Source: Lachnospiraceae bacterium (GTDB taxonomy: Bacteria > Bacillota > Clostridia > Lachnospirales > Lachnospiraceae). From it: DNA of 64,000 bases. The translations under genes were made by a program, and so were the position numbers. Location: assembly GCA_017618195.1 (NCBI GenBank), contig JAFZUW010000065.1, positions 1-64,000 on the forward strand. The letters are read 5' to 3'. The notes below the pieces were generated by a model. It made no database searches. It saw only the letters and a list, made by a program, of their open reading frames with translations, and had not been told where the DNA came from. Numbering within the stretch: position 1 is the stretch's first letter; each line of letters begins with the position of its first letter. Shown one piece after another: positions 14,447 to 60,414 of this stretch.

Positions 14447-14573
14447 AACGACTTTCCTCACAACAGGTACGGATTAACGATTGGGTCTTCCTGTCTTACA
14501 CGGGATACTTTAGCCTACAATTATGTACTTTTTGTGATGAAAAAAGGGTACTTTCTTGAAAAAAGAACACAAA

Positions 14574-14602
14574 TTGACAAAGCCTTTCCGACTCGGTAAA
14601 AT
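14574..14602 (+). promoter_or_regulatory. Strong promoter of the HprK-like kinase gene
   Basis: TTGACA (14574-14579, exact consensus), 17-bp spacer, TAAAAT (14597-14602). Confidence 0.8.
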
Positions 14603-14626
14603 ATTCGGTGTGTCTGATTCTTTACG

Positions 14627-15448
14627 GTGCCTTCGCGGACGCCGTTTTACCGAAATGAACAAGGAGAAATCCGGGTAACCGCTGCACGGACGGTAACCCG
14701 TACATCACATACTATGCCGGTATTCACTGTCGAACTTGCTGGAATCCCCGTAAAAATCCAATGCCGATATCCGGACAATGAAAGTTTCTTCCGCGACTAT
14801 CTCACGGACCGGGAACCGCTTCTTACCATTTCCCCTTCCGAAGCGGATCTGATCCGTACGCAGGCCTGTTTTGACCGCGTGGATGACGCGAAAAACATTC
14901 CCAGAAGGCGGATCGATCCCGCTTTTTTGGAGAACAACGCCATTCATTCCGCTTTGGCGGAAGCCCTGACGGAATACGGTGTTATCCTGCTTCACGGATC
15001 GGCTCTTTCCATAGACGGACAGGGCGTCGTATTTGTCGCGTCAAGCGGCACCGGCAAGAGCACGCACGCGAGGCTGTGGCGGCAAATGTACGGCAACCGC
15101 GTTTTTATGATCAATGACGACAAGCCGCTGATCCGCATCACGGACGGACAGGCCTTTATATACGGAACGCCTTGGAACGGAAAGCACGGATTAAGCCGGA
15201 ACGCCTCCGCACCGTTAAAAGCAGTCGTTTCTCTGGAACGGGACAGCAGTAATCATATCGGTCCGATGTCCCGTCAGGATGCATATCCCCTTTTGATCAA
15301 ACACGCCTATCGGACCGGTAATCCGCTACTGATGTCCCGCATTCTCGATCTGGAGGATCGGCTTCTCGGCGCTGCTTCCTTCCTGCGGCTCGGCTGCAAT
15401 ACGGATCCGGAAGCCGCCCTGGTCGCCTATAACGGAATATTTGCATAA
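14627..15448 (+). CDS. HPr-kinase-like P-loop kinase of the peptide-modification type
   Basis: 273 residues if read from GTG 14627. Neither this GTG nor ATG 14714 has a convincing ribosome site; the downstream paralog fragment aligns from about ATG 14714, so the true start may be there. The C-terminal 170 residues resemble the HPr kinase core: HGSALSIDG, Walker A (ASSGTGKSTHARLW), and the acidic motif FMINDDKP followed by YGTPWNGKHG. Kinases of this shape occur in lasso-peptide loci (ThcoK, PadeK), where they phosphorylate the precursor. There is no HPr-type regulatory domain. It is followed by its own terminator and then a frameshifted paralog/PqqD gene. Function as a precursor kinase is inferred from family and context. 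Confidence 0.75.
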   Translation: MPSRTPFYRNEQGEIRVTAARTVTRTSHTMPVFTVELAGIPVKIQCRYPDNESFFRDYLTDREPLLTISPSEADLIRTQACFDRVDDAKNIPRRRIDPAFLENNAIHSALAEALTEYGVILLHGSALSIDGQGVVFVASSGTGKSTHARLWRQMYGNRVFMINDDKPLIRITDGQAFIYGTPWNGKHGLSRNASAPLKAVVSLERDSSNHIGPMSRQDAYPLLIKHAYRTGNPLLMSRILDLEDRLLGAASFLRLGCNTDPEAALVAYNGIFA

Positions 15449-15452
15449 AAGA

Positions 15453-15489
15453 GGGGCTGTCGCACTAAAGTGTGACAGTCTCTTTTTTT
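15453..15489 (+). terminator. Terminator after the kinase gene
   Basis: GGCTGTCGCAC / GTGTGACAGTC stem with one G-U pair, TAAA loop, then TTTTTTT. Confidence 0.85.
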
Positions 15490-15519
15490 ACCAGAAACAC
15501 AAAAACCGGGTATACTGCA

Positions 15520-15548
15520 TTGATGGATATAAAAATATTGATTATACT
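15520..15548 (+). promoter_or_regulatory. Promoter of the frameshifted kinase-fragment/PqqD gene
   Basis: TTGATG (15520-15525), 17-bp spacer, TATACT (15543-15548), 33 bases before the ATG. Confidence 0.55.
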
Positions 15549-15580
15549 GAAACCGTGGGTTTATTGGATTATATGGAGAA

Positions 15581-15903
15581 ATGAATGTGACTGCCTTTGT
15601 GATAGAGATAGCGGGGGTTCCTGCCGGGATAAAATGCCGTTTTCCCGAAAATCAACTTTTTTCCGGGGATATATTACAGACAGGCCGCCAGTCATTACTG
15701 TTGAACCATCCGATGAGGATATAGGTATGATACGAAGCAACAGCACCGCTTCATACATTGTGGAGCTCCTTAAGGAAGAAATATCTCCGGAGGGAGTCGT
15801 TGACAAAATGTGCACCAAATACGATGCCCCAAGGGAAACGATTGCCCGGGATGTCGGGAAAATCCTGGACAATCTGAAAAGGATAAATGCTTTGGATGAA
15901 TGA
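15581..15903 (+). pseudogene. Frameshifted remnant: kinase N-domain joined to a PqqD-like C-terminus
   Basis: ATG 15581 has GGAG six bases upstream. The first frame gives MNVTAFVIEIAGVPAGIKCR, then FPENQLF. At a run of six T (about 15655-15662) the frame must shift by -1 to continue FFRGYITDRPPVITVEPSDE. Joined this way, about 48 residues align with residues 30-77 of the upstream kinase (VFTVELAGIPVKIQCR..., FFRDYLTDREPLLTISPSE), near 50% identical. The kinase core is then absent and the sequence runs into the helical end of a PqqD-like domain (VVDKMCTKYDAPRETIARDV), lacking the PqqD strands. PqqD-type proteins bind RiPP precursor leaders. It looks like a deletion product plus a frameshift. 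A slippage-expressed functional protein or a sequencing error in the T run are the alternatives. Confidence 0.7.
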
Positions 15904-15980
15904 TCCCTACTCGCTTTAAAACGGAGTGGGATGATACTTGACTATTCCTGTCCGTGCGTTACATAGATCATTAATCAGTC

Positions 15981-16088
15981 TCAATCCAAAGGTTCCGCCC
16001 AATAATCGCTTAAGGCGGTTATGACATCTGCATCAAATGTAACAATCTCAACTTCCAAAACTTCAAACGTTTCTTTCCTTTCGTCCAT
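15981..16088 (-). CDS. 35-residue acidic peptide, candidate modified-peptide precursor
   Basis: Start ATG at 16088 with AAAGGGGG eight bases upstream; stop at 15981. The peptide begins MDERKETFEVLEVEIVTF and ends ADVITALSDYWAEPLD. It is strongly acidic. A charged first half with alternating hydrophobic residues is followed by a short tail carrying Ser, Tyr and Trp, a layout seen in short RiPP precursors. A good promoter drives it (16138-16166). It converges on the kinase/PqqD remnant. No cysteine is present and no glycine is available as a lasso core start, so a lasso peptide is unlikely. Function is inferred from size, promoter and neighbours only. Confidence 0.5.
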   Translation of the reverse strand: MDERKETFEVLEVEIVTFDADVITALSDYWAEPLD

Positions 16089-16137
16089 AAAGCAATCCCC
16101 CTTTCCCAGCCCCATGCCGTCTTTCTTTACTGTCTTT

Positions 16138-16166
16138 ATTATATCTTTTCTCCTCGCGGTTCACAA
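16138..16166 (-). promoter_or_regulatory. Promoter of the 35-residue peptide gene
   Basis: Minus strand: TTGTGA (16166-16161), 17-bp spacer, TATAAT (16143-16138, exact consensus), 49 bases before the ATG. Confidence 0.75.
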
Positions 16167-16222
16167 TAGAAATCTTTCCGAAATTACCTGTTTTCCGGTC
16201 CGTTCCCCGGAGAAATCACAAT

Positions 16223-16260
16223 AAGGCATCCCTTCGACATCAGAGGGGATGTCTTTTTTA
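16223..16260 (+). terminator. Terminator or attenuator upstream of the ABC exporter genes
   Basis: AAGGCATCCC pairs with GGGATGTCTT (one G-U), followed by TTTTT. An alternative shorter stem GACAT/ATGTC uses the same right arm, so two exclusive folds are possible. It could end transcription from the PqqD remnant. A further hairpin GGGGAGA-TCG-TCTCCCC lies at 16381-16397 in the leader of the ABC gene; nothing else is recognised in 16167-16418. Confidence 0.65.
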
Positions 16261-16418
16261 TTCTCGGGAGGGACGCTTTGGTTACGAGTACAATTTGTGA
16301 CATTTTCCCTACAACAATGGACATTGTGATTCTTTGTTTCTTTTGCTACGCTGATGGCGAAAAGAAAAGGATAAGGTTTCGGGGAGATCGTCTCCCCACA
16401 CGCATTTCGGAGGAACAT

Positions 16419-18203
16419 ATGGAAAAGAAGAATCAATTCCCGAAGTCGCGCCTCGGCTGGCTCTGGGAGAACATGGAGGGCAAGCGGGCGCTGTTTATCA
16501 TAGCGCTGTTCGGCACCGCTCTCTATAACGTACTGCAGCTTGTCGTTCCGCACTATTCCGGCAAGCTCGTTAACCTGTTCCAAAAGGTCGAGGACGAAGG
16601 TCTGAGCCTTGCGGACAATGCGGACACGTTCTACCGGCTGATCTTTCTGATGGTCGGGCTTACTCTGTTCCGCGTCATCGTCGTATATCTCGACTGTATG
16701 GCATATGAGCGCGTTTCGCAGGGAACGCTGTTCCGAATCCGTAATTTCCTGTACGACAAGATCCAGCGTCAGGATATGAAGTTTTACAGCACGTATCGTA
16801 CCGGCGATCTGATGACCCGCGTAACGGGTGACCTGGATGCCGTACGTCACAATATCGCGTGGGTTATCCGCTGCATCGTGGAATCCCTCACCCTGTTTCT
16901 TTCGGCAGCGGTTTATTTCTTTTTGATCGATGTGAAGCTTGCGCTCTGCGTTCTTTCGATCTCGCCGCTCATCTTCGTCATCGTGCTCCGCTTCCGTAAT
17001 AAGGTTGCGCCGATACACAAGGCTCTTCGTGAGAAGCTTGCCGGCATGAATACCGACGCGCAGGAGAACATCTCCGGCAACCGCGTCGTTAAGGCATTTG
17101 CCCGCGAGGATTATGAGATTGAGCATTTCGATAAGACCAACCGGGATTACCGCGACACCAACGTCACTACGCAGAAGGTATGGCTTAAGTTCTTCCCGTT
17201 CGTCGAGCTGATTGCAAATGCGTTGCCCGTAATCCTTCTTCTGGTCGGAGGTATGTTCATCATCCACGGACAGATATCGATGGGCGACTATGTCGCATTT
17301 TCCCTCCTGATCTGGGCGATCGCGAACCCGATGCGCATGATGGGCAACATCATGAACGAGTTCCAGCGTTTCAGCGCGGCTTCCGATAAGATCATGGAAA
17401 TCTACTACTCCGAGCCCGAGATCGTGGACCGTCCCGATGCACTTGCGCATCCCGACCGTTTCGACGGACGCGTCGAGTTCGAGCACGTAAGCTTTCAATA
17501 TGAAGACGGCAAATTGCCCGTTCTTAAGGACATTACCTTTACCGCCGAGCCCGGCGAGACGGTTGCCATCATCGGCGAGACCGGCTGCGGCAAGACGTCC
17601 TTGATACAGATGATTCCGCGGTTCTATGAGCCCAACTCCGGCACGGTCCGCGTGGACGGCGTTCCGGTCGAGCGGTATAAGCTTCAGGACCTTCGTAAAA
17701 ACATCGGTCTTGCGACGCAGGACGTTCTTCTCTACTCCGATACGATCGAAGGAAACATTTCCTACGGTGCCATGGCGCTGACGGCCGAAGAAGTGGAAAA
17801 ATACGCCCGCTACTCTGCCGCTTCCGACTTTATCCACCGTATGCCGGAAGGCTACGATACGATCGTCGGCGAGCGCGGCGTCGGTCTTTCGGGCGGTCAG
17901 AAGCAGCGTATCTCGCTTGCGAGAGCGCTTGCGATCAAGCCTTCGATCCTGATTCTCGACGACACCACGTCGGCAGTCGACATGGAAACCGAGAAGCAGA
18001 TTCAGCATAGCCTTCGTAACCTTGATTTCTCCTGCACGAAGATCATCATCGCGCAGCGAATCTCTACGACCAAATTTGCCGACAAAATCCTCGTTCTGAA
18101 GGACGGACGGATCATCGAATCCGGCAATCACAAAGACCTTGTAGCCGCCGGCGGATACTACGCGGACCTCGTGAAGCTCCAGCTCGGCGAGAGCATCGCC
18201 TGA
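16419..18203 (+). CDS. ABC exporter half-transporter, subunit with degenerate ATP site
   Basis: 594 residues from ATG 16419 (CGGAGG upstream; the longer open frame has no ribosome site). Six membrane helices (about residues 20-320) are followed by a nucleotide-binding domain with Walker A (GETGCGKTS), signature LSGGQKQR and Walker B (ILILDDTTSAVD). The residue after Walker B is Asp instead of the catalytic Glu, and the switch His is Gln (IIIAQRIST). Its own ATP site is therefore degenerate, typical of one half of a heterodimeric exporter such as BmrC/D. It is followed by its partner after 17 bases. Substrate is unknown; peptide or drug export both fit. Confidence 0.9.
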   Translation: MEKKNQFPKSRLGWLWENMEGKRALFIIALFGTALYNVLQLVVPHYSGKLVNLFQKVEDEGLSLADNADTFYRLIFLMVGLTLFRVIVVYLDCMAYERVSQGTLFRIRNFLYDKIQRQDMKFYSTYRTGDLMTRVTGDLDAVRHNIAWVIRCIVESLTLFLSAAVYFFLIDVKLALCVLSISPLIFVIVLRFRNKVAPIHKALREKLAGMNTDAQENISGNRVVKAFAREDYEIEHFDKTNRDYRDTNVTTQKVWLKFFPFVELIANALPVILLLVGGMFIIHGQISMGDYVAFSLLIWAIANPMRMMGNIMNEFQRFSAASDKIMEIYYSEPEIVDRPDALAHPDRFDGRVEFEHVSFQYEDGKLPVLKDITFTAEPGETVAIIGETGCGKTSLIQMIPRFYEPNSGTVRVDGVPVERYKLQDLRKNIGLATQDVLLYSDTIEGNISYGAMALTAEEVEKYARYSAASDFIHRMPEGYDTIVGERGVGLSGGQKQRISLARALAIKPSILILDDTTSAVDMETEKQIQHSLRNLDFSCTKIIIAQRISTTKFADKILVLKDGRIIESGNHKDLVAAGGYYADLVKLQLGESIA

Positions 18204-18220
18204 GGAAGGGGGGAATCGAA

Positions 18221-20002
18221 ATGGCTGAAAAGAATACCTACAAACAGGACGAACGTCTTGACGAGCCCTTTAACATAAGACACCTCCTTCTTGCTTCGTC
18301 ATATATTAAGAAATACCTTCCGAAGATGGTCCTCGCGCTTCTGATCAGCGCCTGCGCCGGAGCGGTTGTACTGCTTGCCCCGATCCTCACGCAGAAGGCG
18401 ATCGATGACGCAATCCCGAACAAGGACGAGAAGTATCTCTTCCTGCTCGGCGGAATGCTCGTCGGCGTATTTGCCGTAAGCGTAATCCTGACGCTTCTTC
18501 GGTCTCATATGATGATCCGTGTTTCGCAGAACATCATTTACGATATCCGTAAGGACCTGTTCGCGCATCTGCAGAAGCTGCCGTTCCAGTACTATGACGA
18601 CCGGCCGCACGGCAAAATCCTGATCCGTGTCGTAAACTACGTGAACTCCGTTTCGGATATGCTTTCGAACGGTCTCATCAACGTCATCCTTGAGATGATC
18701 AACCTGATCCTGATTGTCATCTTCATGATGATCGTCGACGTTCAGATGTCGCTCGTCGTTATGTGCGGCGTTCCCGTGCTTGCCGCGTTCCTCTTCTGGA
18801 TCAAAAACCGGCAGAGGCGTGCATGGCAGCGCGTTTCCAATAAGAACTCGAACCTGAACGCTTACCTGCAGGAGAACATCGTCGGAGCAAGGATCACGCA
18901 GATCTTCGCCCGTGAGGACGAAAATGCGAAGATTTTCTCCGGTCTTGCCGATGACTGCCGCCACACCTGGATGCACGCCGTTCGCTGCAACAACCTCGTA
19001 TGGCCCGGTATCGACGCGATTTCCGTATGCATCCGTGCCGCGATCTTCATCTTCGGTATGGTTCTGTTCGGGCAGGGCAGCAAAACGATCGGTACCATCA
19101 TCGCGATCTCGAGCTACTCGTCGCGTTTCTGGCAGCCGATCATGAACATGGGAAACATCTTCAACAACTTCCTCAACAACATGGCTTATCTGGAGCGTAT
19201 CTTCGAAACGCTCAATGAGCCCGTTACGGTTGATGACAAGCCCGATGCGTGCGAGATGCCGCCGATCAAAGGCGCCGTTTCGTTCCGAGACGTATGCTTC
19301 TCTTACGAGCCCGGCAAGGAGATTCTGCATAAAGTTTCCTTTGACGTAAAGCCCGGTATGAGCGTCGCGCTGGTCGGCCCGACCGGTGCCGGCAAGAGCA
19401 CGATCGTCAACCTGATCTCAAGATTTTACAACGTCGATTCCGGACAGGTGCTGATTGACGGACAGGACGTTTCCGATGTAACGCTTAAGTCGCTTCGAAG
19501 CCAGATGGGTATTATGATGCAGGACAGCTTCATCTTCTCCGGAACGATCCGCGACAACATCCTGTACGGCAAATTAGACGCCACCAACGAAGAAATCTTC
19601 AAAGCCTCCCGTCTTGTCTGCGCGGACTCGTTCATTAACGGCATGTCCGACGGATACGACACCGAGGTAAAAGAGCGCGGTTCCCTTTTGAGCCAGGGCC
19701 AGAAGCAGCTGATCTCATTTGCCCGCACCGTACTCTCCGACCCCGCCATCCTCATTCTGGATGAAGCAACATCCAGTATTGACGTTCAAACCGAAAAGGC
19801 ACTCCAGCAGGGACTGAATTCCATGCTGAAGGGCCGGACCTCCTTTATTATTGCTCACCGGCTCTCCACAATCCGCGGATGCGACCTCATCATGTATATT
19901 GATGACGGTGGCATCACGGAAGCCGGGACGCATGATGAACTGATGGCTAAGAAGGGCGATTACTATCACCTCTACACATCACAGCTTGAGGACATCGCCT
20001 GA
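18221..20002 (+). CDS. ABC exporter half-transporter, subunit with catalytic ATP site
   Basis: 593 residues, same fold as the upstream partner: six membrane helices, then Walker A (GPTGAGKST), Walker B (ILILDEATSSID) with the catalytic Glu, and switch His (FIIAHRLST). Its signature is LSQGQKQL rather than LSGGQ. In the heterodimer the complete ATP site pairs this Walker A/B with the partner's canonical signature, while the degenerate site pairs the partner's Asp/Gln with this altered LSQGQ. AAGGGGGG precedes the ATG. A bidirectional terminator follows. Confidence 0.9.
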   Translation: MAEKNTYKQDERLDEPFNIRHLLLASSYIKKYLPKMVLALLISACAGAVVLLAPILTQKAIDDAIPNKDEKYLFLLGGMLVGVFAVSVILTLLRSHMMIRVSQNIIYDIRKDLFAHLQKLPFQYYDDRPHGKILIRVVNYVNSVSDMLSNGLINVILEMINLILIVIFMMIVDVQMSLVVMCGVPVLAAFLFWIKNRQRRAWQRVSNKNSNLNAYLQENIVGARITQIFAREDENAKIFSGLADDCRHTWMHAVRCNNLVWPGIDAISVCIRAAIFIFGMVLFGQGSKTIGTIIAISSYSSRFWQPIMNMGNIFNNFLNNMAYLERIFETLNEPVTVDDKPDACEMPPIKGAVSFRDVCFSYEPGKEILHKVSFDVKPGMSVALVGPTGAGKSTIVNLISRFYNVDSGQVLIDGQDVSDVTLKSLRSQMGIMMQDSFIFSGTIRDNILYGKLDATNEEIFKASRLVCADSFINGMSDGYDTEVKERGSLLSQGQKQLISFARTVLSDPAILILDEATSSIDVQTEKALQQGLNSMLKGRTSFIIAHRLSTIRGCDLIMYIDDGGITEAGTHDELMAKKGDYYHLYTSQLEDIA

Positions 20003-59129: not shown

Positions 59130-59240
59130 CTATTGCACATTCTCCTCCTCATGCGGAATCCCCAACCGCTTAAACAGTTCCTTCTGCTTGCGGTGTTCCT
59201 TATAATTGGCCACCAGTCCCGCGGAATTCCTGTCACGCTT
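59130..59240 (-). pseudogene. 3' relic of a second nucleotidyltransferase gene
   Basis: In a frame different from the upstream gene, the minus strand encodes KRDRNSAGLVANYKEHRKQK, then ELFKRLGIPHEEENVQ and a stop. The last residues of the intact gene are KRDKSSAGFVANYKEHRKQK, then QLFEKLGIPNEGENAAK. The relic begins at the very end of the intact gene. This is what remains when two tandem paralogs recombine or when one is deleted. Confidence 0.8.
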
Positions 59241-60414
59241 ATTTCGCAGCATTCTCTCCCTCATTCGGAATCCCGAGTTTCTCAAACAGCTGCTTCTGCT
59301 TGCGGTGCTCCTTATAATTTGCGACAAAACCGGCCGAACTCTTGTCGCGCTTGAGCCCCTTTCTGATATATCGGCATATCTGATAGATCCAGGCAAACGG
59401 ACGGAGGATCTTGTGCTTTTTAGCGGCAGGCCAGTTCTTGAGACCACGTTGTTGAAGTTTTTTAAAGGAGATACCTTCGTGTAATACTGTCATCGTAGAC
59501 TTATCTTTAAAATCGAGGTTTTTCCCGAAGTTCCCAGCCTCATTAACCATCTGAAATAATTGTTCACATATCGATTCATCAACCTCTAAGCACCACGTGT
59601 GGCTTGGCGCACCAAGATAAAGTTCCCCCATGCGTGTTACAGTTTTTGCCAAAATCTCAAACCCTGTCTTTTCAGCTAGAGGCTGCAATTTTCCGGCCCA
59701 AAACTCTTCGCTTACCACCGAATCCACATACAAGAGCCAATCGATTATCTGTCGGAATCCTAAGCCGGAGTGCAAATGATGTGAAATATGATCAAGAAAT
59801 ATTAATCCGTTTACTTCATCAGAGAACGAGAAAAAATGATAATGTCCAAAACTGTTAAACGATCTTTCTACCTGTGTAGAATTATCTACTATAGAGTCCA
59901 ACAGCAGTTCGTTCTGATTCCTCCGATGAGAGAAATACCGGTGCATCTCAAGTTCCAGCTTCCCTTTGCGGAATTCGAGATGACGCACTGTTCGATCGTC
60001 TTCTTTATATCCCAGTCCTCGCAGAACCTCTCTGGCCTTTTCAAAAGTTTCCTCAGTTCTCGGGAATACCATAAAATCGATATCTCCCATCCTGCGAAGC
60101 CCCGGTTCCGGATAATACATGGCAGCAGAGGCACCTTTGAGAACAGCTGCCGTACAGCCTGCCTGAGAGAGCGCGTCCATAATCTTATTCTGTTCACTCA
60201 TATAAGCGGCGAACGATGTCATCTGATGCGCCAGAGCCTGCTCCACCTCTTCCTGAACACCGGACTCGGCTTCATACTTTGAAATTGCATCTGCTGTCAA
60301 TGCGAGAATTGCATGATCGTTCAATTGCCGGATAGTTTCTTTCGTAACCTCACCGGCAACCGGCACCCGATGATACAATGTAGTTTTTAAAACGTCTATT
60401 GCCAATTGATCCAT
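59239..60414 (-). CDS. Nucleotidyltransferase family protein (NTP_transf_5-like)
   Basis: 391 residues. The motif CTAAVLKGASAAMYYPEPGL followed by RRMGDIDFMV carries the G-S/A and D-x-D of the polymerase-beta-like nucleotidyltransferase fold, as in the uncharacterised PF14907 type. The remainder is helical (NGLIFLDHISHHLHSG). Such proteins occur in polysaccharide loci and also in lasso-peptide loci beside HprK-like kinases, so its partner here could be either the flanking sugar genes or the kinase at 14.6 kb. AAGGA lies nine bases before ATG 60414. It ends in a partial duplicate of its own 3' end. Confidence 0.8.
   Translation of the reverse strand: MDQLAIDVLKTTLYHRVPVAGEVTKETIRQLNDHAILALTADAISKYEAESGVQEEVEQALAHQMTSFAAYMSEQNKIMDALSQAGCTAAVLKGASAAMYYPEPGLRRMGDIDFMVFPRTEETFEKAREVLRGLGYKEDDRTVRHLEFRKGKLELEMHRYFSHRRNQNELLLDSIVDNSTQVERSFNSFGHYHFFSFSDEVNGLIFLDHISHHLHSGLGFRQIIDWLLYVDSVVSEEFWAGKLQPLAEKTGFEILAKTVTRMGELYLGAPSHTWCLEVDESICEQLFQMVNEAGNFGKNLDFKDKSTMTVLHEGISFKKLQQRGLKNWPAAKKHKILRPFAWIYQICRYIRKGLKRDKSSAGFVANYKEHRKQKQLFEKLGIPNEGENAAK

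Follow-up and report, generated by a model that had tools for sequence, protein, structure and literature searches.

A compact locus in the window, by which we mean the whole 64,000-nucleotide stretch of Lachnospiraceae DNA analyzed here, is probably the remnant of a RiPP system like those of the linear polyphosphorylated peptides (LPPs). Its HprK-like kinase gene and its precursor-like peptide gene look intact and stand in convergent orientation on either side of a PqqD/RRE gene that recombination seems to have wrecked. The features discussed below are as follows.

14574-14602, + strand: promoter-like site (TTGACA-17-TAAAAT) upstream of the kinase; 11 of 12 consensus bases, a consensus match only
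14714-15448, + strand: HprK-like kinase, intact-looking, 244 amino acids; 28 homologous loci, invariant columns kept
15581-15723, + strand: piece of a second kinase gene, from its N-terminal end; the frame breaks near 15655, 45% identity
15724-15903, + strand: 3' part of a PqqD/RRE gene (PF05402), in frame with the kinase fragment at 15724
15724-16049, no strand assigned: block near-identical to G021:C5; 317 of 326 bases, and 258 of 260 in 15724-15983
15981-16088, - strand: 35-residue precursor-like peptide; leader ends VIT, then ALSDYWAEPLD
16138-16166, - strand: promoter-like site (TTGTGA-17-TATAAT) upstream of the peptide; 10 of 12 consensus bases
14590-16284 (approximate), no strand assigned: variable-site cargo between an HtrA gene and an exporter, from the flanks in G005 and G012

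The kinase gene and its genomic company

The kinase lies in a complete open frame (14627-15448) whose most likely start is the ATG at 14714. A sequence-only reading of this DNA had proposed a P-loop kinase of HPr-kinase shape, and the comparisons bear that out. Specifically, homologs with 37-60% identity occur at 28 loci from named genomes, and, set against 31 other aligned rows, the window kinase departs from none of the 29 columns that never vary there and from none of the 49 in which at least 90% of those rows agree. Its AlphaFold2 model has a pLDDT of 93.8. Matches to Pfam and NCBIfam models are weak and all under the cut-offs: the HPr kinase model PF07475 gives 14.5 bits against a cut-off of 33.3, and the likeness to NCBIfam HprK-related kinases A and B (TIGR04352, TIGR04355) and ScmC (TIGR04249), with E values of 4e-4 to 5e-3, amounts to 16-20 bits against cut-offs of 125-200 and does not make the protein a member. 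Among sequences with solved structures, its relatives are two PEPCK sequences at E about 0.01. The nearest kinases in the genus, those of genomes G010, G021, and G016, are 55-60% identical to the window kinase and form a single clade with it (98/85). No clear Shine-Dalgarno sequence precedes the gene. The search for RNA structure on its 5' side returned two Rfam matches in the window, far under gathering scores, and in four relatives Rfam yielded nothing but tRNAs.

RiPP enzymes and precursor peptides keep recurring near the kinase homologs. At a distance of at most 5 kb, a PqqD gene is present at 22 of the 28 homologous loci, an S26 peptidase gene at 17, a radical SAM gene (either of two kinds) at 16, an NTP_transf_5-like gene at 10, a related ABC exporter at 7, and a lasso-cyclase-like gene at 2; four loci have none of the RiPP genes sought. 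These counts include contigs that end near the kinase, loci that are near-copies, and one locus, L045, that is apparently the G010 contig. This company, and a local PqqD segment that passes the Pfam cut-off, go against both of the outcomes that the sequence-only reading had named as refuting it, and a degenerate or minimal RiPP system, as that reading had it, is the best account of the locus. The kinase does not fix the class of product, since its neighbors include radical SAM genes at the 16 loci and a lasso-cyclase-like gene at the two.

The association extends to whole genomes. In the genus, the 12 of 22 genomes that have the kinase are exactly those that have PqqD (Fisher 1.5e-6), a pattern that shared ancestry may explain in part. 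A profile of the peptide finds matches in 8 of the 22, all kinase-positive; once the three genomes that contributed rows to the profile are set aside, the peptide is present in 5 of 9 kinase-positive genomes versus 0 of 10 others (p 0.011). An enlarged profile matches 16 of 299 family genomes (298 genera), all within the 78 that have a kinase hit. With the window's own genome excluded, all 15 peptide-positive family genomes are kinase-positive (hypergeometric 5e-10), and their kinases score at least 189 bits in 14 cases and 77 in one. Coordinates place a family peptide no more than 3 kb from a kinase match in 6 of these 15 (G028, G141, G151, G218, G258, and G304). In G021, three such peptides (C34) are convergent to that genome's kinase, which is the window layout. 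Counting against a uniform LPP reading of the homologous loci, a strict motif search found no convincing precursor at any of the seven radical-SAM-free loci that have PqqD and S26 (L020, L023, L024, L026, L037, L040, and L044). At two further loci, L075 (G010) and L079 (G016), a radical SAM-PqqD-peptide-S26-NTP transferase set lacks the kinase, and each genome carries its kinase on a different contig; in G016 that contig stops 55 bases past the kinase.

A broken PqqD/RRE gene in a recombined block

The frame-broken gene at 15581-15903 is a chimera of a second kinase's N-domain and the 3' part of a PqqD gene, the combination that had been proposed from the letters alone. Positions 15593-15715 resemble the kinase N-domain (45% identity, E 1.4e-4). 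The frame break falls in a T-rich stretch near 15655, within the kinase piece, and leaves two halves in different frames. The PqqD piece scores 42.9 bits against a PF05402 cut-off of 23.4 (E 6e-11, profile positions 11-64 of 67), well above the threshold, and so is not an unrelated HTH. It corresponds to the last 59 of the 86 residues of a full-length relative in another genome of the genus (L077). Because the first 27 residues are missing in comparison with that relative and the remaining parts lie in two frames, the local RRE, judged by its sequence, is most likely dead. Kinase and PqqD also exist in one open frame, at L080:3956-5044 (G016) and L085:4699-5559 (G006), where the kinase part is P-loop kinase-like.

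From 15724 onward the DNA is near-identical to that of G021:C5, a locus with a full-length PqqD gene and a peptide of sequence MKEKEIYETPSMEIIEFDADVITAASDYWSEPLD. In ungapped comparison, 2 of 260 bases differ in 15724-15983 and 7 of 66 in 15984-16049; beyond that point the likeness drops away, with 22 of 39 bases differing in 16050-16088, 57 of 82 farther out, and 113 of 150 to the left of 15724. DNA identity between the two genomes is 66% for the citrate synthase genes, 69% for the kinases, and 73% over 233 bases of the exporter, whose protein is 88% identical. Near-identity in the block against 66-73% elsewhere implies a recent move, or a recent common source of both copies. The G021 copy appears to be nearer the donor than the window copy, and the window kinase, which lies outside the block, was not part of what moved. 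Since the likeness to G021 stops inside PqqD and inside the peptide leader, the locus is a recombined remnant. The DNA of the window leader is no more like that of the resident leaders than chance would give (best E 0.1). An origin by mobile repeats was rejected: the window lacks the exact ATAAAATCGGGG repeats that surround the G021 locus. At L077:6097-7574 these repeats flank the G021 PqqD-peptide locus on both sides, and that locus also carries an ATPase-like gene and a truncated NTP_transf_5 gene.

A 326-base stretch 97% identical to another genome, set between unlike flanks, is also what an assembly artefact fusing pieces of two organisms would produce. Such an error would, however, require a join at either end of the 326 bases, one of which falls within a peptide gene without breaking its frame, and the outer flanks match the genus. 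We regard it as very improbable.

The surroundings suggest a site whose contents change. The exporter flank was retrieved from 11 other genomes; in two of them, G005 and G012, an HtrA gene stands opposite the exporter with unrelated genes between the two. The content of the HtrA-exporter gap (14461-16419 in the window) differs among G000, G005, and G012. Such a site with changing cargo, a wrecked RRE gene, and an arrangement confined to 1 of 22 genus genomes, with the near-identical block in 2, would suit a pure relic, that is, a locus that makes nothing and whose kinase and peptide have simply yet to decay. We give this possibility real weight but judge it the lesser one: the kinase has kept all of its conserved residues, promoter-like sites precede both intact genes, and elsewhere the genome has intact genes for a PqqD, a kinase, a radical SAM protein, and an S26 enzyme.

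The exporter pair that had been noted downstream (16419-20002) is real, but it is not specific to the locus, because its first gene belongs to the genus at large: 21 of 22 genomes have it, at 56-92% protein identity besides the window's own copy, and so do 9 of the 10 kinase-free ones. We therefore rejected the exporter as a part of the locus. Its identity to the exporter of a homologous locus is 23-24%. The far-off NTP_transf_5-like gene is likewise real (59239-60414, about 43 kb from the locus; 113 bits against a Pfam cut-off of 31.2), and nothing speaks for or against its membership. Pfam detected this gene, which tblastn with a related gene had missed. As had been stated, neither a radical SAM gene (four tblastn queries, E 1e-4) nor a lasso-cyclase-like, asparagine-synthase-like gene (one L031 query, tblastn, E 1e-4) was found in the window, nor was an S26 gene in its 64 kb (two tblastn queries, E 1e-4); these absences rest on few-query searches of the kind that missed the distant NTP_transf_5 gene. 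Across the genome, one radical SAM query matched one gene, at C46. Within the locus itself, the analysis turned up neither an intact RRE nor an S26 gene nor a dedicated exporter.

The peptide, its leader, and a possible supply in trans

Of the promoter-driven 35-residue peptide that had been proposed, the gene stands, on the minus strand and preceded by a GGGGGA stretch that is a possible Shine-Dalgarno sequence. The promoter is less secure. A scan found 5 sites versus 3.0 expected in shuffles, so promoter-like sites alone prove little. A profile of peptide relatives matches the window peptide at E 2e-12 and 2e-11, values that are not independent, as the peptide is itself a row of the profile. 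With the cut site placed by analogy with PMC13381572, the peptide has Thr at -1 and Ser three residues after that last Thr of the leader (VIT/ALS). The same spacing recurs in the G021:C5 peptide and in two of the three G021:C34 peptides; in the remaining one, the Ser comes one place later. The genome encodes five further peptides (two at C28 and one each at C46, C61, and C35), with Ser at +2, not +3.

The closest known kind of locus, in the sense of the nearest described family, is that of the LPPs of Bacillota. Popov et al. 2026 (PMC13381572) describe an HprK-like kinase, a discrete RRE, an SpI-like S26 peptidase, an NTP transferase, and an MsbA-like exporter; the kinase puts phosphates on core Ser3, cleavage follows Thr-1, leaders carry [Y/W]xxP, and, as presented there, neither a cyclase nor a radical SAM enzyme is needed. 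The lack of these two enzymes is thus no defect in itself. The window shares with that description an HprK-like kinase, a discrete RRE, short precursors, no macrolactam cyclase, a Thr before the cut, and a Ser at core position 3, and the homologous loci add the S26, NTP_transf_5-like, and related ABC exporter genes at the frequencies given above. The likeness of the kinase itself rests on RRE, S26, and NTP transferase genes beside its homologs, not on a sequence comparison with LppK. Several features differ from the LPP description: the local RRE is broken, truncated, and in two frames, the intact PqqD being at C6; no S26 gene was found in the window, one being at C46; the leader has F-x-x-L, not YxxP; and the genes are scattered in the window's genome, with radical SAM genes beside many of the kinase homologs.

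Lasso-peptide kinases and NTP transferases are the subject of a review (PMC8498205) and are reported from rumen bacteria (PMC7533575). Phosphorylated lasso peptides of the paeninodin and Bsf type, as portrayed in PMC8498205 and PMC10368454, similarly combine an HprK-like kinase acting on a precursor Ser with a PqqD-type B1 and an NTP transferase, and their leader motif YxxPxL at -17 to -12 has the spacing of the G021:C5 peptide. The window differs in having no lasso-cyclase-like gene by the one query used. In one open-licence library, no paper joined four of PqqD, HPr kinase, radical SAM, signal peptidase, and RiPP, and the term HprK was absent from the radical SAM papers among the matches listed.

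If the LPP analogy holds, an RRE would bind the peptide leader, the kinase would add one or more phosphates to the Ser three residues past the leader's last Thr, and a signal-peptidase-like S26 enzyme would cut after that Thr. The RRE and the peptidase could be supplied from elsewhere, for example by the PqqD at C6:93593-93802 and the S26 at C46:2177-2620. That PqqD is intact, and the C46 locus encodes a radical SAM protein, a kinase, TraX, the S26 enzyme (with weak likeness to archaeal-type signal peptidase I, under the cut-off), and a peptide of its own. We infer that the C6 RRE and the C46 kinase, radical SAM, and peptidase genes may still serve the window locus in trans.

Leader sequences are compatible with such service. 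The window leader motif is F-E-V-L, and the related G021:C5 peptide has Y-E-T-P. Peptides from genomes with a C6-type PqqD begin the motif with F in 7 of 7 cases, and those from genomes with the other PqqD type begin it with Y in 11 of 12 (Fisher 1.6e-4), in counts made by hand that exclude the window peptide and two G006 peptides and include paralogs that are not independent. The C35 peptide, outside this count, also has F. An F in the window leader, where the G021 locus has YxxP, fits a leader that may be suited to the resident RRE.

The direction of service could also be the reverse, with the window kinase acting on the genome's other peptides (C28, C46, C61, and C35) and the window peptide incidental. 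Five candidate substrates encoded elsewhere in the genome would favor this, as would G010, where the kinase is on a contig apart from the radical SAM-PqqD-peptide-S26-NTP transferase set and must act in trans if that system works. Yet the C46 locus has a kinase of its own, 47% identical to that of the window, and we consider this reversal unlikely.

Dispersed precursors and large secreted proteins

Family peptides lie about 15-86 bases 3' of large-protein genes at 8 of 14 places examined (L110, L111, L112, L051, L113, L115, L118, and L057). These proteins have 438 to 2258 amino acids, two of them cut by the fetched stretch; several start like secreted proteins, and several share a C-terminal domain unrecognised by Pfam. 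A profile of this domain (A4) matches 9 of the 12 genus genomes with the kinase and none of the 10 that lack it, its six rows coming from five of the nine positive genomes and kinship being uncorrected. Homologs of the domain gave 47 matches and 40 downstream stretches, with a family peptide listed after 4, by a script whose Shine-Dalgarno filter missed at least two known peptides (G006:C39 and G000:C35). The link between peptide and preceding secreted protein holds for a minority of proteins with this domain.

We speculate, tentatively and at odds we put somewhat below those of a pure relic, that the genome runs a scattered, trans-acting network in which a shared pool of RRE, kinases, and peptidase acts on many dispersed precursors, several of them directly after giant secreted-protein genes, and in which new cores recombine onto a resident-type leader. 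In such a network, the window would hold a G021-like core and RRE fragment behind a resident F-type leader, with the incoming RRE left to decay.

Returning to the reading that we favor, a remnant of an LPP-like system, the locus links a kinase and peptide family found in Clostridia of rumen and gut type to a class of phosphopeptides first reported in 2026. Kinase, RRE, and peptides co-occur across genomes although they are physically split, and the window is apparently a natural example of precursors exchanging leader and core. The encoding of several precursors right after large, apparently secreted proteins provides a lead to function.
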